Assembly (NCBI GenBank): GCA_016215105.1
Contig: JACRLJ010000094.1
Span: 24,411 to 58,097, forward strand
Origin: Candidatus Hydrogenedentota bacterium
Lineage (GTDB): Bacteria; Hydrogenedentota; Hydrogenedentia; Hydrogenedentales; SLHB01
DNA: 33,687 bases
Reading direction: 5' to 3'
The first letter of the stretch is position 1, and every line of letters begins with the position of its first letter. Under the pieces are notes generated by a model. It had not been told where the DNA came from. It made no database searches and saw only the letters and a list, made by a program, of their open reading frames with translations. This document shows, piece by piece, positions 2,640 to 27,897 of this stretch. Position numbers and translations under genes: made by a program.

Positions 2640-3889
2640 TGCTGCCCAGGCGAATTCGGTACGTTGACCTTCACGCCGTCTGTCAATTCACGAATGCCCA
2701 GCGACGTGATCAACACGTCGCCTTCTTTCAGGCCGTCAAGAATTTCGCGCGTCGCCCAGTTGCCCACGCCTACTTTCACGGTACGGCGCACCGCGCGCCC
2801 GTTTTCCACCACGTAGCCCGCTTCATCCCGCACCAGCGCCTCGGTGGGCGCAAACAAGACGTTCTCTTTCTCCTGAACGATGATCGTGACGTCCGCCGAC
2901 ATGCCGACGACGAACTTATCCTGCTGCTCCTCGACGCGAATCTTGACCTTCATGGTCCGGCTGAGATCGGGGTTGAGCGAAACCACGGGCGCAATGTAGG
3001 TCACCGTCCCTTTGAAGTCGGTTCCGCGGTACGAGTCCAAGTTGATCCGGGCGGTCTGACCCACGCGCACCTGAGACGCGTTGGCCTCGTCAAACGGCGC
3101 CTCGACATAGCATTCATCGGTCTGGACGACTTGGGCCGCGGGAAGCCCCATTGACACCGATTCGCCTACGTCTACATTGCGCCGGGCGACAATACCGCTG
3201 ATAGGGGTGCGAATGAACGCCTTGGCGCGCGCCGCTTTAGCGACGTCCAAGGCCGCGCCGAGTTGCTCGACGGCGGCTTCGGTGGACTTCACCTCTTGCT
3301 CACGCACCAGGTTTTGCTGCTGATTCGCCACCGCCGCCGCCTTGTTCTCGCGGGAGACACGCAATGCCAGCGCCGCCTTGTCCATATCCGACTGGGATAC
3401 GGCTTTTTGGTCGCGTAGCGCCTTGATGCGTGTGTAATCCATCTGCGATTGATCGAGTTGGGCGGATGTTTGGCTGACTTGCGTAGCCGCCACCTCGGCA
3501 TTGATCGTCGCGCCAATCTTGGCCTGTTCGAGGCGGATCTTGCCGACGCGCAAATTTGCTTCCGCCAATGCGACCTGCGCGTCAAGATCGGTGTGGTTCA
3601 ACTCGACCAGGACATCCCCTTCAGTGACTCGATCCCCTTCCTGGATTGGCGTGGCGATGACCTTTCCCATGAACTCCGAGGCGACCATCGAATCCACTTT
3701 GGCCATCACTGTGCCCGAAGAGATCGCCGAAACCGTCTGCTCGACACGCCCCTTCTTGAGCGTAGTTACGGTCACGTTCACCACGGTTTGGCGCAGTCCA
3801 AGGTAGGAGATCGGCGCCGCGATCGCCGCGGCCACCGCCACCCAACCCAAGATAGACAGCGCTATGCTTTTATGCTTTTGTTCCGCCAT
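2636..3889 (-). CDS. MacA/HlyD-family periplasmic membrane-fusion protein
   Basis: This 417-aa adaptor links the inner-membrane ABC complex to the outer-membrane channel. It has one N-terminal membrane anchor at about residues 10-32, followed by a biotinyl/lipoyl-like half-motif (GKVIATPIQEGDRVTEGDVL). A long Ala/Gln-rich alpha-helical hairpin of about 120 residues follows, then the second lipoyl half (FIRTPISGIVARRNVDVGE). Beta-barrel and membrane-proximal domains close the protein, ending in the GLKEGDVLI segment. Domain order and length match MacA-like RND/ABC adaptors. It overlaps the upstream ATPase gene by 28 bases and the downstream permease by 4, so the three genes form a tight operon. 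Confidence 0.93.
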   Translation of the reverse strand: MAEQKHKSIALSILGWVAVAAAIAAPISYLGLRQTVVNVTVTTLKKGRVEQTVSAISSGTVMAKVDSMVASEFMGKVIATPIQEGDRVTEGDVLVELNHTDLDAQVALAEANLRVGKIRLEQAKIGATINAEVAATQVSQTSAQLDQSQMDYTRIKALRDQKAVSQSDMDKAALALRVSRENKAAAVANQQQNLVREQEVKSTEAAVEQLGAALDVAKAARAKAFIRTPISGIVARRNVDVGESVSMGLPAAQVVQTDECYVEAPFDEANASQVRVGQTARINLDSYRGTDFKGTVTYIAPVVSLNPDLSRTMKVKIRVEEQQDKFVVGMSADVTIIVQEKENVLFAPTEALVRDEAGYVVENGRAVRRTVKVGVGNWATREILDGLKEGDVLITSLGIRELTDGVKVNVPNSPGQQ

Positions 3890-4581
3890 TCGTCGTTAAC
3901 CAATTCTCCATCCCGGAAACTCATGATTCGTTCCGCATGTTCAGCGATATCCCGCTCATGCGTGACCATAACGATGGTGTTGCCCTTACGATGCAGTTCG
4001 TCGAAAATGCGCAGAATCTCCTCGCCGCTCACCGAATCCAGATTGCCTGTCGGCTCATCCGCGAAGAGGATGGATGGCGAGTTGACCAGAGCCCGCGCGA
4101 TCGCCACCCGCTGCCGTTGACCGCCGGACAATTCATTTGGACGGTGATTCAGCCGATCGGCCAACCCGACCGCGCAAAGCGCTTCCGCGGCGCGGCGCGT
4201 GCGTTCTTTGCGGGACACGCCCGCATAGAGCAAGGGTAGCTCGACATTGGACAAGGCAGACGTGCGAGCCAGAAGGTTGAAGGTTTGAAATACGAAACCA
4301 ATTTCCCGGTTGCGCAACTCGGCCAGACGCCCTTCAGACAACTCATTGACGCTCGCGCCCGCCAGCCGGTAGTCCCCGTCCGACGGACGTGACAAACACC
4401 CGAGGATGTCCATCAACGTCGTCTTGCCCGAGCCCGAGGGTCCCATTACGGATACAAATGTGCCCCGATCAATTTCGAAGGATACGCCCCGCAACGCGCG
4501 CACCACGGATTCTCCCATCTCATAATTCTTCGCGAGATCCCGCACTACGATTAAAGGTTCGTTCGTGGATTCAACAGCCAT
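3862..4581 (-). CDS. MacB/LolD-type ABC transporter ATP-binding protein
   Basis: This 239-aa nucleotide-binding subunit drives the adjacent FtsX-type permease. Walker A is GPSGSGKTT at residues 47-55, the Q-loop lies in FVFQTFNLL, the signature LSGGQ is at 151-155, Walker B ILFADEPTG starts at 171, and the switch histidine is in VTHE. Length and sequence fit the LolD/MacB-N/FtsE group of small exporters' ATPases. The ATG at 4581 leaves an N-terminus typical of the family (IVVRDLAKNYEMGE). It is the first of three overlapping genes (ATPase, adaptor, permease). A 226-base gap carrying a palindromic repeat separates it from the tolC-like gene upstream. Confidence 0.95.
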   Translation of the reverse strand: MAVESTNEPLIVVRDLAKNYEMGESVVRALRGVSFEIDRGTFVSVMGPSGSGKTTLMDILGCLSRPSDGDYRLAGASVNELSEGRLAELRNREIGFVFQTFNLLARTSALSNVELPLLYAGVSRKERTRRAAEALCAVGLADRLNHRPNELSGGQRQRVAIARALVNSPSILFADEPTGNLDSVSGEEILRIFDELHRKGNTIVMVTHERDIAEHAERIMSFRDGELVNDEWRNKSIKA

Positions 4582-4685
4582 AAGCGCACTATTGTAGCAA
4601 ATGGGCGGGGCGTGGATACACTTGGCGTTTCATTCGTGAATATGGTCCTGGTGTAGTGGGTAACGCTGACGGGGCCTCATGCTTG

Positions 4686-4764
4686 GACGCGAATGCCGCG
4701 AAAAGCAGGGACAGACACGCTTTTCAAATTGCCGAAAAGCGAGTCAGTCCCCGTTTTTCGCTTG
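4686..4764 (+). repeat. 79-bp palindromic intergenic repeat, copy 1
   Basis: This copy matches 25447-25525 at 75 of 79 positions, in the same orientation. Each half is itself a hairpin (GAAAAGCG/CGCTTTTC arms), and the halves are inverted copies of each other around a GGGAC...GTCCCC pair, giving a potential cruciform. An eight-base flank (GCTGACGG) 13 bases before the repeat is also shared by both copies. Composition and architecture resemble REP elements mobilised by RAYT (TnpA_REP) transposases; that assignment is inference, and no such gene is in the window. It lies between the tolC-like and ABC ATPase genes of one exporter cluster. Confidence 0.85.
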
Positions 4765-4807
4765 GACTCCGTGTTCATTTGAGATGCTTCAATTCCTATT
4801 CACAACA

Positions 4808-6574
4808 CTAGCGCCACTGTTCGGGGATCAGGCTTTTCAGGTAAGGCTCCGGCTTCTCGGTAGCGGGCGGCTCGAAGGCGATACCCAGGTCGTCGAGCAA
4901 GGTGCCCTGCGCCGAGCGCAGATCGATCACGGCCTTCTCAAATTGGATCAACGCCCCGACCTCTTGCGTTTGGGCGGAGGTAAGGTCCTGCTGTTTCAGA
5001 AGCACCTGGTAACTCGTGCTCACGCCGAGGTTTAGCCGCTTTTCTTCAGCGGCGAGGTTGGTCTCCTGCAAGGCCCGAGCATTCCGGTTACTGGCGACCA
5101 GCGTCCGGCTTGTCTCGAGGCTGCGGATGGACAGGCTCACATCGCGCGCGGCGATCTGCTTCGAGCGCGACCACTGCTGCTCGGCCTGCCGCACCGTTAG
5201 CGTAGCCCGCTGGTGAGCGCCGCGCGCCGTTCTATTGCCCAACGACAGCGTCCCCGTGACGCCGACTGAAAAACTCTTGTCCAAGGGGTCTACCACGCCG
5301 TCAAATACCTCGCTCATGTAGTGATTGTGCGAGCCTTGAGACGCGGACCCGGTCAGCGCGACGTTGGGCAACATTGCATTGCTCGCCTGCTTCTGATCGA
5401 TCTTGGCGCTTTCGATAGCCAGTTCCGCGCTCTTGATGTCCGGGCGATGTTCAATCGCCAGCGCAATACTGGCCGCTTCATCGGTTGCGAGGTCAGTTAC
5501 GGCGGGCCGATTCAGCGGTATGATAGAGCCTTTGGCCAGGGCCTCTCCGTCCTGCATACCCAGCAATTGCTTGAGGATATCTTCGGCGTTCTTTACTTGC
5601 GCGTGGGCCGTAATCAGGCCGCTTTGGCGCAAGGCAACGCCCGCCTTCGCCTGCACGATGTCGATGGCGGCGCCGGTGCCGATCTTCAGACGCTTCTGGT
5701 TGATATCGAGCAGGCGTTCCGCGTTGTCCAGCGCCTGCTGCTGCACCTTCAACTGCTCTACGGCGCCCACCAAATCCCAATAGGACTTGGCCACCTGGGC
5801 GACCGTGCTCAGTACGGTGTACTGAAGTTGCTCATTCGAGATCAGGCGGGAGTTCTTCGCGATTCGGACGCGCGCCAAGTTCGCATTCAGGCCCGCCCCC
5901 TGCAATAGGGGTTGAGTTATCGTCAACGTGAGCCCGCCCGACCACAGTTCGATGTATTTCCCGGATGTATTCTCGACCTTGTTTACGCCCATCGACACGT
6001 CGTACTGCGTGCCCCATTTCAGCTTGCCGAGAAACTCCGTATTGGTCTGCGTGTTGTATGACACCACTGAGGGATACCCCTTGGTTGATGCGCCCGGCGC
6101 GAAGGGAGTCCCGAGCCCCGTGGCCACACCGAAGTTCGAGTATTGGTAGTTCGCGCTACTGCGCAAGGCCGGATCGAATTCGCCCTTCGCCGACATAATG
6201 TCCGCGTCGGACTTCATGGGCTCATACTCCGCCACCAGTATGTCCTGATTATTCTCGAGCGCGCGGCGCACGCAGTCTTCCATGCTCATGCGGTACTGTT
6301 CGCCCCCTTCCTTGTCCACGATCTCGCGCAGCGTATTCTCGAACTGACTCAGGTCAATCTTGTTGATGTCGATCTTTTCCTCGCTGGACGCGCCATTCGG
6401 GGCCGCCGGACCGGGCTCGGTGGCAGGCGCCGATGACTCCGGCGCCGGCGTTTCCGGCGCTGCTGGAGCCGGGCTCGCACTCTGGGGCGCAGCCTCAGGG
6501 CTGTTGTCCGTAGCCGCGGACGCGGGGCCAGCGATCAACGCCACCGAAGTGATGAGACGAAGAAGTAGACTCAT
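4808..6574 (-). CDS. TolC-family outer-membrane efflux protein
   Basis: This 588-aa outer-membrane channel protein probably completes a tripartite exporter with the three genes downstream. The ATG at 6574 is preferred over the longer 6616 start because GGGGAG lies just ahead of it and the resulting N-terminus is a good signal peptide (LLLRLITSVALIAGPASA). A Pro/Ala/Glu-rich low-complexity linker of about 45 residues follows. The two OEP repeats then start with the family-typical MSMEDCVRRALENNQDILVAE. Helical signatures such as LKVQQQALDNAERLLDINQ and the C-terminal EKAVIDLRSAQGTLL are TolC-like. It is longer than the usual 450-500 residues because of the linker. The 226-base gap to the ATPase gene, with a repeat in it, leaves co-transcription open. 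Confidence 0.93.
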   Translation of the reverse strand: MSLLLRLITSVALIAGPASAATDNSPEAAPQSASPAPAAPETPAPESSAPATEPGPAAPNGASSEEKIDINKIDLSQFENTLREIVDKEGGEQYRMSMEDCVRRALENNQDILVAEYEPMKSDADIMSAKGEFDPALRSSANYQYSNFGVATGLGTPFAPGASTKGYPSVVSYNTQTNTEFLGKLKWGTQYDVSMGVNKVENTSGKYIELWSGGLTLTITQPLLQGAGLNANLARVRIAKNSRLISNEQLQYTVLSTVAQVAKSYWDLVGAVEQLKVQQQALDNAERLLDINQKRLKIGTGAAIDIVQAKAGVALRQSGLITAHAQVKNAEDILKQLLGMQDGEALAKGSIIPLNRPAVTDLATDEAASIALAIEHRPDIKSAELAIESAKIDQKQASNAMLPNVALTGSASQGSHNHYMSEVFDGVVDPLDKSFSVGVTGTLSLGNRTARGAHQRATLTVRQAEQQWSRSKQIAARDVSLSIRSLETSRTLVASNRNARALQETNLAAEEKRLNLGVSTSYQVLLKQQDLTSAQTQEVGALIQFEKAVIDLRSAQGTLLDDLGIAFEPPATEKPEPYLKSLIPEQWR

Positions 6575-6705
6575 GTTTTTCTCCCCAAGACCAGCAATTT
6601 GATCGCTGAAAGTCACGGCAAATTGTTATGTGTGTTAGGACCTAGTAGCGCCTGCCAGGGTTTCAGCCAACCTCCAATCCGATTGGCCCGCAGTGAAACC
6701 CATTC

Positions 6706-24881: not shown

Positions 24882-25274
24882 ATGCGCACTCCAGGACGAG
24901 ACAAACATACCGATACCGACGATATCGAGGATAGAGCCTTTGAGTTCGCGGCTGCGATCGTGCGCTTGGTCCGCGAGCACGAAAATGAAATGCCACGGCC
25001 GATGTCAGAGGCGTTGGTTCGCAGTGGCGCCACCATAGGCTCGCACATTCTTCAGGCCAACAATGGCCAGAGCAGACGAAACTTTCTCTCCCAAATGACC
25101 TCTGCGCGAAAGCTTAGCCTCGAAGTAAGCTACTGGCTGAAGCTGCTACTGGTATGCGGAATTACCACCAAGACGGACGTGCGCCCGTTCCTCGAGGTGG
25201 CGCACGATCTCCGCGTGGATCTGACTACGATCTGCGCAAAAGCCAGGACTCAGTTGGAGACGGACAAATCGTAG
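24882..25274 (+). CDS. Four-helix bundle protein (S23/IVP family)
   Basis: This 130-aa protein fits the four-helix bundle family first seen inside 23S rRNA intervening sequences (TIGR02436-type): FEFAAAIVRLVREHENEMP, the conserved LVRSGATIGSHILQA turn and the SYWLKLLL helix are in place. Such proteins are common in environmental bacteria, often outside rRNA, and their role is unknown. It starts 23 bases after cysS and may be transcribed with it. It is not in or near an rRNA gene here. A repeat-rich gap follows. Confidence 0.85.
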   Translation: MRTPGRDKHTDTDDIEDRAFEFAAAIVRLVREHENEMPRPMSEALVRSGATIGSHILQANNGQSRRNFLSQMTSARKLSLEVSYWLKLLLVCGITTKTDVRPFLEVAHDLRVDLTTICAKARTQLETDKS

Positions 25275-25280
25275 GAATCC

Positions 25281-25307
25281 GGCCAGAAAGCCGGCTTCTT
25301 GACGCGG
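25281..25307 (+). repeat. 27-bp intergenic repeat, copy A
   Basis: GGCCAGAAAGCC followed by GGCTTCTTGACGCGG lies seven bases after the four-helix-bundle gene. Copies B (25628-25654, same strand) and C (27817-27843, opposite strand) share its core; A and C agree at 23 of 27 positions. The core contains the palindrome AAGCCGGCTT. All three copies are intergenic. Confidence 0.55.
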
Positions 25308-25446
25308 CGCGGCCAGAAGGCGTCCGTAAGTTATTCAATACCAGTGCTGGCTCGTTCGGAGTTTTGCCGTGTGGAGGCGTTCCAGCCGCGCCTCGAGACG
25401 CAAACACCGTAGTGTATTGATTCATGCTGACGGCATCCTTTGTCTC

Positions 25447-25525
25447 GACGCGAAAGCCGCGAAAAGCGGGGACAGACACGCTTTTCAAACTGCCGAAAAG
25501 CGAGTCAGTCCCCGGTTTTCGCTTG
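25447..25525 (+). repeat. 79-bp palindromic intergenic repeat, copy 2
   Basis: This second copy of the element at 4686-4764 has four substitutions. The compensated double-hairpin architecture is kept: GAAAAGCG and CGCTTTTC arms around GGGGACAGAC, and GAAAAGCGAG before CAGTCCCC. It lies in the 464-base gap between the four-helix-bundle gene and the sigma factor start. That gap also holds 27-bp copies A and B near its two ends and a candidate ECF promoter; no gene is seen in it. Confidence 0.85.
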
Positions 25526-25627
25526 ATTGCGGAGTCTTGCAAGCATGTGCGTCGTGCAGCGTAGACTCTTGATATTACATGAGTTCAATGATTCCGAAGC
25601 CCGCCAGCCGTCAAGTCTAGGCGGTTT

Positions 25628-27816: not shown

Positions 27817-27843
27817 CCGCGTCAATTAACAGGCTTTCTGGCC
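27817..27843 (-). repeat. 27-bp intergenic repeat, copy C
   Basis: This inverted copy of the A/B repeat reads on the minus strand GGCCAGAAAGCC followed by TGTTAATTGACGCGG, with four mismatches to copy A in 27 positions. It lies between the convergent Spy-like gene and the 473-aa unknown gene. A small GGCGG/CCGCC hairpin lies about 30 bases beyond it. Confidence 0.45.
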
Positions 27844-27897
27844 AAGCTCCTAGGATACCACGTCCTTTGAGGCGGCTGGACCGCCCTACCAGTTCCG

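Follow-up and report, generated by a model that had tools for sequence, protein, structure and literature searches.

A dispersed palindromic repeat of a Candidatus Hydrogenedentota bacterium as a probable chimera of an IS630-type MITE and a TIRYT-type palindrome

Repeat copies and neighbouring genes in the window

The window, a stretch of 33,687 nucleotides from Candidatus Hydrogenedentota bacterium, contains two exporter genes on the minus strand. These are an ORF for a TolC-like outer membrane protein (4808–6616) and an ORF for an ABC ATPase (3862–4581), both named from their translations without a family search. A copy of a dispersed repeat (copy 1) is located between them, and the ATPase gene follows the element downstream, in the same orientation. 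The original prediction placed the repeat at 4686–4764 and 25447–25525, and the match it gave for the two 79-nt copies, 75/79 or 94.9% identity, is correct. Its 79-bp limits are too narrow. A repeat search stretches the pair to 4651–4764 and 25412–25525 (84% over 114 nt); copy 1 is a full element at 4649–4810, and the second copy (copy 2) starts at 25410 and has no right end.

Copy 1 reads as a complete 162-bp MITE on the plus strand (4649–4810, TA to TA position), with both ends at the standard 162-bp spacing and the left TA reading TG. The left terminal inverted repeat, TGGTGTAGTGGGTAA (4649–4663, plus strand), has the consensus TAGTGTAGTGAGTCA, which matches an IS630 end in another genome of the phylum, G030. 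The right terminal inverted repeat lies on the minus strand (4796–4810). The core, GGGACAGACACGCTTTTC-loop-GAAAAGCGAGTCAGTCCC (4708–4751), is a TIRYT-like palindrome in which two A.A mismatches are conserved, and it matches the family consensus at 43/44 positions. It is bordered by the outer left arm CGCGAAAAGCA (4697–4707) and the outer right arm CGTTTTTCGC (4752–4761), all on the plus strand. Copy 2 (25410–25535, plus strand) comprises the left end, left arm, core and first 24 nt or so of the right arm, and its right terminal repeat is not recognisable. Its core (25469–25512, plus strand) is 44/44 identical to the consensus. Another repeat, CGGCCAGAAAGCC..., is present as inverted copies at 25268–25307 and 27817–27856 of the window, and a similar sequence, GGCCGCGCCTC, adjoins the end of several MITE copies.

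Both copies had been described as keeping two hairpins. The strong fold is borne out in each, with energies of -22.1 to -28.9 kcal/mol (z -5.1 to -8.0) for DNA folding of both copies on both strands, and 0/200 shuffles matching the native fold in each of the four. The favoured structure is a single long imperfect hairpin containing the two A.A mismatches; two side-by-side hairpins are an alternative fold only.

The stop codon of the tolC-like ORF, TAG (4808–4810, minus strand), is formed by the outer TA of copy 1 and the first element base, G. Across the genome's elements, 23 ORFs of at least 80 codons run into an element end, distributed as 11, 6 and 6 over the three frames. The stop falls exactly on the element boundary in nine of them (8 TAG, 1 TAA), including most of the longest, which is a modest excess. 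Positions 4400–5000 yielded neither an intrinsic terminator nor a sigma-70-like promoter pattern, and an intrinsic terminator role was rejected on that basis. Rfam likewise gave no match at 4500–4950 up to E 1. An effect of copy 1 on the expression of the exporter genes is possible.

Architecture and conservation of the dispersed element

In the 6.68-Mb genome, 77 cores were tabulated. The left arm GGGACAGACACGCTTTTC accounted for 61 exact and 20 one-mismatch occurrences among the matches listed, and a reversed control pattern for none. The original prediction had named two copies only, with no RAYT gene, as the outcome that would speak against it; the 77 cores and 13 Y1_Tnp genes are not that outcome. 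A local duplication limited to two copies is ruled out by the same count.

The 79-bp unit lies centrally in an element of 162 bp whose inverted ends read TA|GTGTAGTGAnTCA. Most cores sit within this longer element, whose ends, TAGTGTAGTGAGTCATGCTGA... and ...TTCAATTNTGANTCACTACACTA, are mutually inverted. Scored by set thresholds, both shell arms are present at 25 of the 77 cores, the left only at 18, the right only at 13 and neither at 21. Both ends were recognised in 25 copies, and 16 of them measure exactly 162 bp; these 16 make up the 162-column alignment, from which the nine of other length were left out. Another core lies within 150 bp of 19/77 cores, in arrays of a 93-bp unit. Tandem arrays of this unit, which holds the core and parts of the arms, were observed at L017 (contig C163), L126 (C157) and L062 (C61). 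The 21 cores with no recognisable shell arm and the 19 near another core suggest that some arose otherwise, for example by tandem duplication.

The dinucleotide TA is found at 46/69 scored element ends, a count made on occupied sites only and with TA itself part of the end-selecting pattern. The 25 genomes of the family that were searched included no second member of the genus. Outside that pattern, C precedes the left end in 32/38 cases and G follows the right end in 26/31, giving a CTAG context. The idea that the core entered already existing, empty MITEs at a late stage was rejected, as no empty shell occurred among the end-matched places read. The 56/77 cores with an arm in the standard orientation also count against it, with the reservation that 22 of these pass the threshold reversed too, through the likeness of the two ends, though always with a lower best score. 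Several copies in the genome are interrupted by insertions or junctions. An insertion with ends GGAGCCGTTGAAAAACCC has apparently entered the core at L119, L121 and L233 (C128:123, C139:10602 and C65:147), leaving TCAGT on both sides, with the core palindrome as its target.

The exact end pattern occurs in 10/68 genomes of the phylum. In G030 (C22:6023–7194), two inverted copies of the end bound 1,172 bp with a 361-aa ORF that carries DDE_3 (E 4e-20) and HTH_23 domains. By these domains and boundaries the ORF encodes an IS630-family transposase, and the element is an intact IS630-family insertion sequence. Its ends agree with the shell consensus at 30/34 positions on the left and 26/30 on the right, and on this match the shell is assigned to an IS630-type MITE. 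The dispersed unit has the anatomy of such an element, being short (162 bp) and non-coding, with terminal inverted repeats and ends homologous to an autonomous IS630 element with a DDE_3 transposase, and is accordingly classed as a predicted IS630-type MITE. In this genome the dispersed sequence is for the most part a MITE with IS630-type ends, which the original prediction did not contain. No PF13358 match was obtained in the genome itself (assembly 95% complete), in a search whose control was positive in 3/14 genomes. No protein match to the G030 transposase was found there either, in a search run without a positive control. A transposase in the same genome is usual, not strictly required, for an IS630-type MITE.

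The core is better conserved than the remainder of the element. Among the 16 complete copies, substitutions number 12/704 in the core vs 247/1536 in the shell (p 8e-13), and mean pairwise identity is 0.966 in the core, 0.90–0.95 in the outer arms and 0.69–0.79 elsewhere. Diverged arms sharply bound the near-identical stretch, which measures 44 bp, or about 66 bp when the outer arms are included. The 77 cores collapse to 60 distinct 66-mers, of which 53 and 56 respectively keep the two A.A mismatches; this retention indicates that the palindrome is not simply being perfected.

Since the first table was built from core matches, the collection was repeated with each shell arm alone. There were 41 left and 40 right arm matches, with 40/77 and 40/48 candidates scored and the first 30 of each examined. 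A core of at least 40/44 was present at 21/30 left-arm and 24/30 right-arm places. Of the remainder among these 60, two scored 30–39/44 and 13 fell below 30/44, most of the latter cut, rearranged or out of register, not point-mutated. On C168 (left) and C158 (right) the core is present but out of register; the place on C26 is cut by a contig end. An ascertainment artefact was rejected on the strength of these arm-collected copies. As regards the earlier suggestion of selection or recent spread, the conserved core is compatible with selection, conversion and continuing enzyme action alike.

Outside this genome, the core occupies the same site in two species, G029 and G030 (L156 and L157), right after the preceding gene. 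The two cores are 43/44 identical; both sides of the site are 81–88% identical and the spacer 62%. The core is read in frame as part of a 370-aa open frame in both genomes, and coding constraint may therefore help to account for its identity.

The core and Y1 transposases

The core, GGGACAGACAC...GAGTCAGTCCC, begins with GGGACAGAC and finishes with GTCAGTCCC. Its start resembles the terminal repeats of TIRYT-type Y1 transposons. The terminal motif of that class, GGGGWSAS, is present in one core subtype (GGGGACAG); the other subtype, which includes copy 1, has AGGGACAG. Among the 13 Y1_Tnp (IS200/RAYT-type) transposase genes of the genome, three (L036, L037 and L038) encode proteins of 229, 231 and 237 aa with PF01797 and the motifs NHVH and YVERNP/YVELNP, and are flanked by GGGACAG...CTGTCCC inverted repeats with arms of their own. 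By size and motifs, these are putative members of the TIRYT/subclass 2.1 type. No C-terminal HTH was detected by Pfam in four TIRYT-like proteins. The resemblance of GGGACAG/CAGTCCCC to RAYT-mobilised REP elements, as originally proposed, is apt in that three resident Y1 genes are flanked in this way, but the GTAG/GTGG foot of classical REPs is absent from the cores and outer arms as read.

A RAYT gene flanked by the same repeat had also been anticipated, and none was found at the 13 resident Y1 loci. A blastn search of the repeat against them (up to 1.5 kb on each side, 8/13 cut by a contig end) returned no copy. The nearest case is in G015, where L143, the closest Y1 relative of L036 in that genome (69% identical), has a diverged core in its unit between the stop codon and the right end. 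The exact arm ACACGCTTTTC is found in 5/68 genomes of the phylum. A motif scan of 15 foreign loci (about 1.5 kb or less on each side) revealed no convincing Y1 gene near it. In a scan reaching beyond the phylum, four stretches matched, three in other phyla and one being the sequence of the G015 locus L111, and none held a Y1 transposon with the exact arm; this contig scan required a non-A base after the arm and possibly left out records from the same or very near genomes. In G004, where cores are present, four Y1 matches lie in frames of 150–174 aa, none TIRYT-sized. The comparison for G015 and G004 covered eight Y1 loci, with no ORF listed for L144.

Cores with no shell occur in G015 (L107, L108, L109 and L114) and in G029 and G030. 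The core at L109 (C483) is placed between two copies of a gene end of roughly 25–30 bp, as if its insertion came with local duplication. At three sites in the genome under study (C61:35437, C155:1328 and C108:678), TTAGCGYCAYTC or a closely similar foreign flank meets the core exactly at |GGGACAG. The same exact joins to a TTAGCGYCAYTC-like flank recur at three G015 loci (L105, L110 and L116). Such joins may be the expected trace of strand exchange at a cleavage site.

Guide-target pairing between sequence segments is a feature of IS608. In a complementarity test of 13 ends, the mean longest run between outer and inner arms was 5.7 for own pairs, against 3.9 for cross-family pairs, of which the largest run was 7, and 3.9 for shuffled outer arms. 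A similarity to the IS608 pairing is suggestive only.

Other Y1 genes have palindromes of their own. L031, L033, L034 and L035 are short Y1 genes, the first three flanked by their own palindromes; L035, cut by a contig end, has an L033-type palindrome upstream. L146 (C97, 1085–1201), 117 bp long and gene-less, has the same ends as the L036 transposon and is a miniature of it. At L039 (C128:103871–104095), the Y1_Tnp domain is embedded in an open frame of 1,466 aa whose translation resembles a DNA methylase and has repetitive stretches of alanine and proline, possibly a case of a transposase gene inserted in frame.

Origin of the repeat and comparison with known systems

The preferred reading, given a probability of about 0.7, is that two transposition systems contributed to the repeat, as a chimera of an IS630-type MITE shell and a TIRYT-type Y1 palindrome core that is still acted on. 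The shell would be related to an IS630 insertion sequence, shortened to 162 bp by internal deletion and moved into CTAG sites with TA duplication by an IS630 transposase. This step is supported by the anatomy of the element, although the enzyme is no longer found in this genome. The cargo would be non-autonomous and REP-like, a palindrome of the GGGGACAG type found at the ends of TIRYT-class Y1 transposons (HUH, single-strand), an assignment drawn from the shared end motif, the conserved mismatches, the shell-less cores and the junctions exactly at GGGACAG. Continued action on the core would explain why it stays near-identical while the shell decays. It may be kept as a substrate of a Y1 enzyme or homogenised by conversion between copies, with a role in the host as a third option. 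Counting against the chimera reading are the failure to find a Y1 transposon with the exact arm at the loci and contigs scanned, the 13 resident Y1 loci with no core (8 cut by contig ends), the G004 cores in a genome with no TIRYT-sized Y1 match, the resident cores that have no shell arm or lie close to another core, and the transposase not found for the shell.

The view of the original prediction was that of a conventional REP family moved directly by its cognate RAYT, the surrounding shared sequence being incidental. The palindrome with its conserved mismatches, the high copy number, the Y1 genes and the shell-less cores in relatives all agree with it. It is nonetheless improbable, given that both shell arms accompany 25/77 copies and one arm 31 more, that the GTAG/GTGG foot is absent and that no resident Y1 gene flanked by the repeat was found at the 13 loci. 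The IS630-homologous ends and CTAG context largely refute it for the dispersal in this genome. Still further from likelihood is an artefact of collecting the copies by core: the first table was indeed built in that way, but the core levels at arm-collected places refute it for the copies examined.

Two further explanations concern why the core alone has been preserved. Ordinary RecA gene conversion could homogenise the core as the sole stretch still identical enough, requiring no special enzyme or function. The sharp boundary between the near-identical stretch and the diverged arms is what it would produce, and this reading, while doubtful, deserves consideration. It is countered by the equally conserved core of G029 and G030, where a single exact left arm occurs per genome, a count of exact arms only at a site within an open frame. 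Host selection on a protein-binding site or mRNA hairpin, with the transposon ancestry irrelevant today, is unlikely. It would account for a core more conserved than its shell and for the shared G029/G030 site, at which the core (43/44) exceeds the neighbouring sequence (0.81–0.88). That site, however, lies in the 370-aa open frame, where coding constraint may contribute; several resident copies are cut by insertions or junctions, the Rfam and terminator searches found no match, and the exact arm is present in only 5/68 genomes of the phylum.

The same ends also enclose other palindromes. Nine paired mini-elements with these IS630-type ends were read outside this genome, with four kinds of palindrome: the GGGACAG core in G004 and G015, TGTGGTGC(A/G)GGC... 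in G032, TCATTCCGGCGAAAGCCGG in G046 and TCATTGCGAGCGAAGCGAAGC in G030. The interior folds better than shuffles in eight of the nine (z -2.6 to -10.6), the exception being L163 in G001 (z 0.0). Ten pieces of the IS630 gene, taken for comparison, ranged in z from -2.3 to 0.6, with two no higher than -2. Within the genome under study, L145 and L148 (z -2.7 and -4.2) hold a fifth palindrome in the shell, one also found flanking short Y1 genes; for L147, whose core is deleted, z is -1.2. At least five different palindromes in the same shell, over six genomes, with two of the five sequence-linked to Y1 transposases, form the basis for a wider proposal. IS630-type MITEs may be general carriers of unrelated palindromic repeats in Hydrogenedentota, so that the substrates of one transposition system are dispersed by a second, and the cargo is preserved as the shell decays. 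This generalisation is tentative, its chances being put slightly below even. A hairpin interior may even favour the mobility of the shell.

If the chimera reading is true, it provides a concrete route for REP-like palindromes to reach high copy number with no enzyme of their own, by riding a DDE-type MITE. It would also connect the terminal motif of TIRYT-type elements (subclass 2.1) with a palindrome family dispersed in dozens of copies. The unequal decay of core and shell offers an internal test of maintenance as against mere spread for such palindromes.

A Y1-type palindrome in an IS630 MITE was not found in the literature listings on RAYT and MITEs, TIRYTs, IS630 MITEs and REPs, or Hydrogenedentes. 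Nezha is a MITE linked to IS630. Correia and RUP are named as IS630-derived MITEs in PMC2817692. As in these IS630-family MITEs (Correia, RUP, Nezha), the element is short and non-coding, has terminal inverted repeats with TA and matches an autonomous IS630 element. Unlike them, it has a Y1-type palindrome for an interior, far better conserved than the ends, and its transposase was not found in the host genome.

The RAYT/GTAG REP systems (Nunvar 2010, PMC2817692) share imperfect palindromes, Y1 transposases and many dispersed copies with the present family, which differs in the absent GTAG foot and in that no gene flanked by the repeat was found in its own genome. TIRYT genes are named in Di Nocera 2013 (PMC3733652), many with the terminal motif GGGGWSAS, together with moderately abundant TIR families. 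Quentin 2018 (PMC6006769) places most TIRYTs in subclass 2.1, with a median of 238 aa, and reports REP-like sequences as absent there. The present family resembles the TIRtron/TIRYT repeats in its GGGGWSAS-type motif (GGGGACAG) and in the Y1 transposases of about 230–240 aa with NHVH. It departs from them in numbering tens of copies, which mostly reside in an IS630 MITE, and in that the exact arm was found at no Y1 gene.

REP dimers nested in longer palindromes have already been described, for Anabaena variabilis in PMC3733652. There, REP dimers lie inside long palindromes with TATA ends, and palindromes with no REP were not found. The present repeat, in which a REP-like unit is likewise nested in a longer palindrome, differs from the GTAG-type REP of that account in its GGGACAG core and in a shell that is tied to an identified IS630 element.
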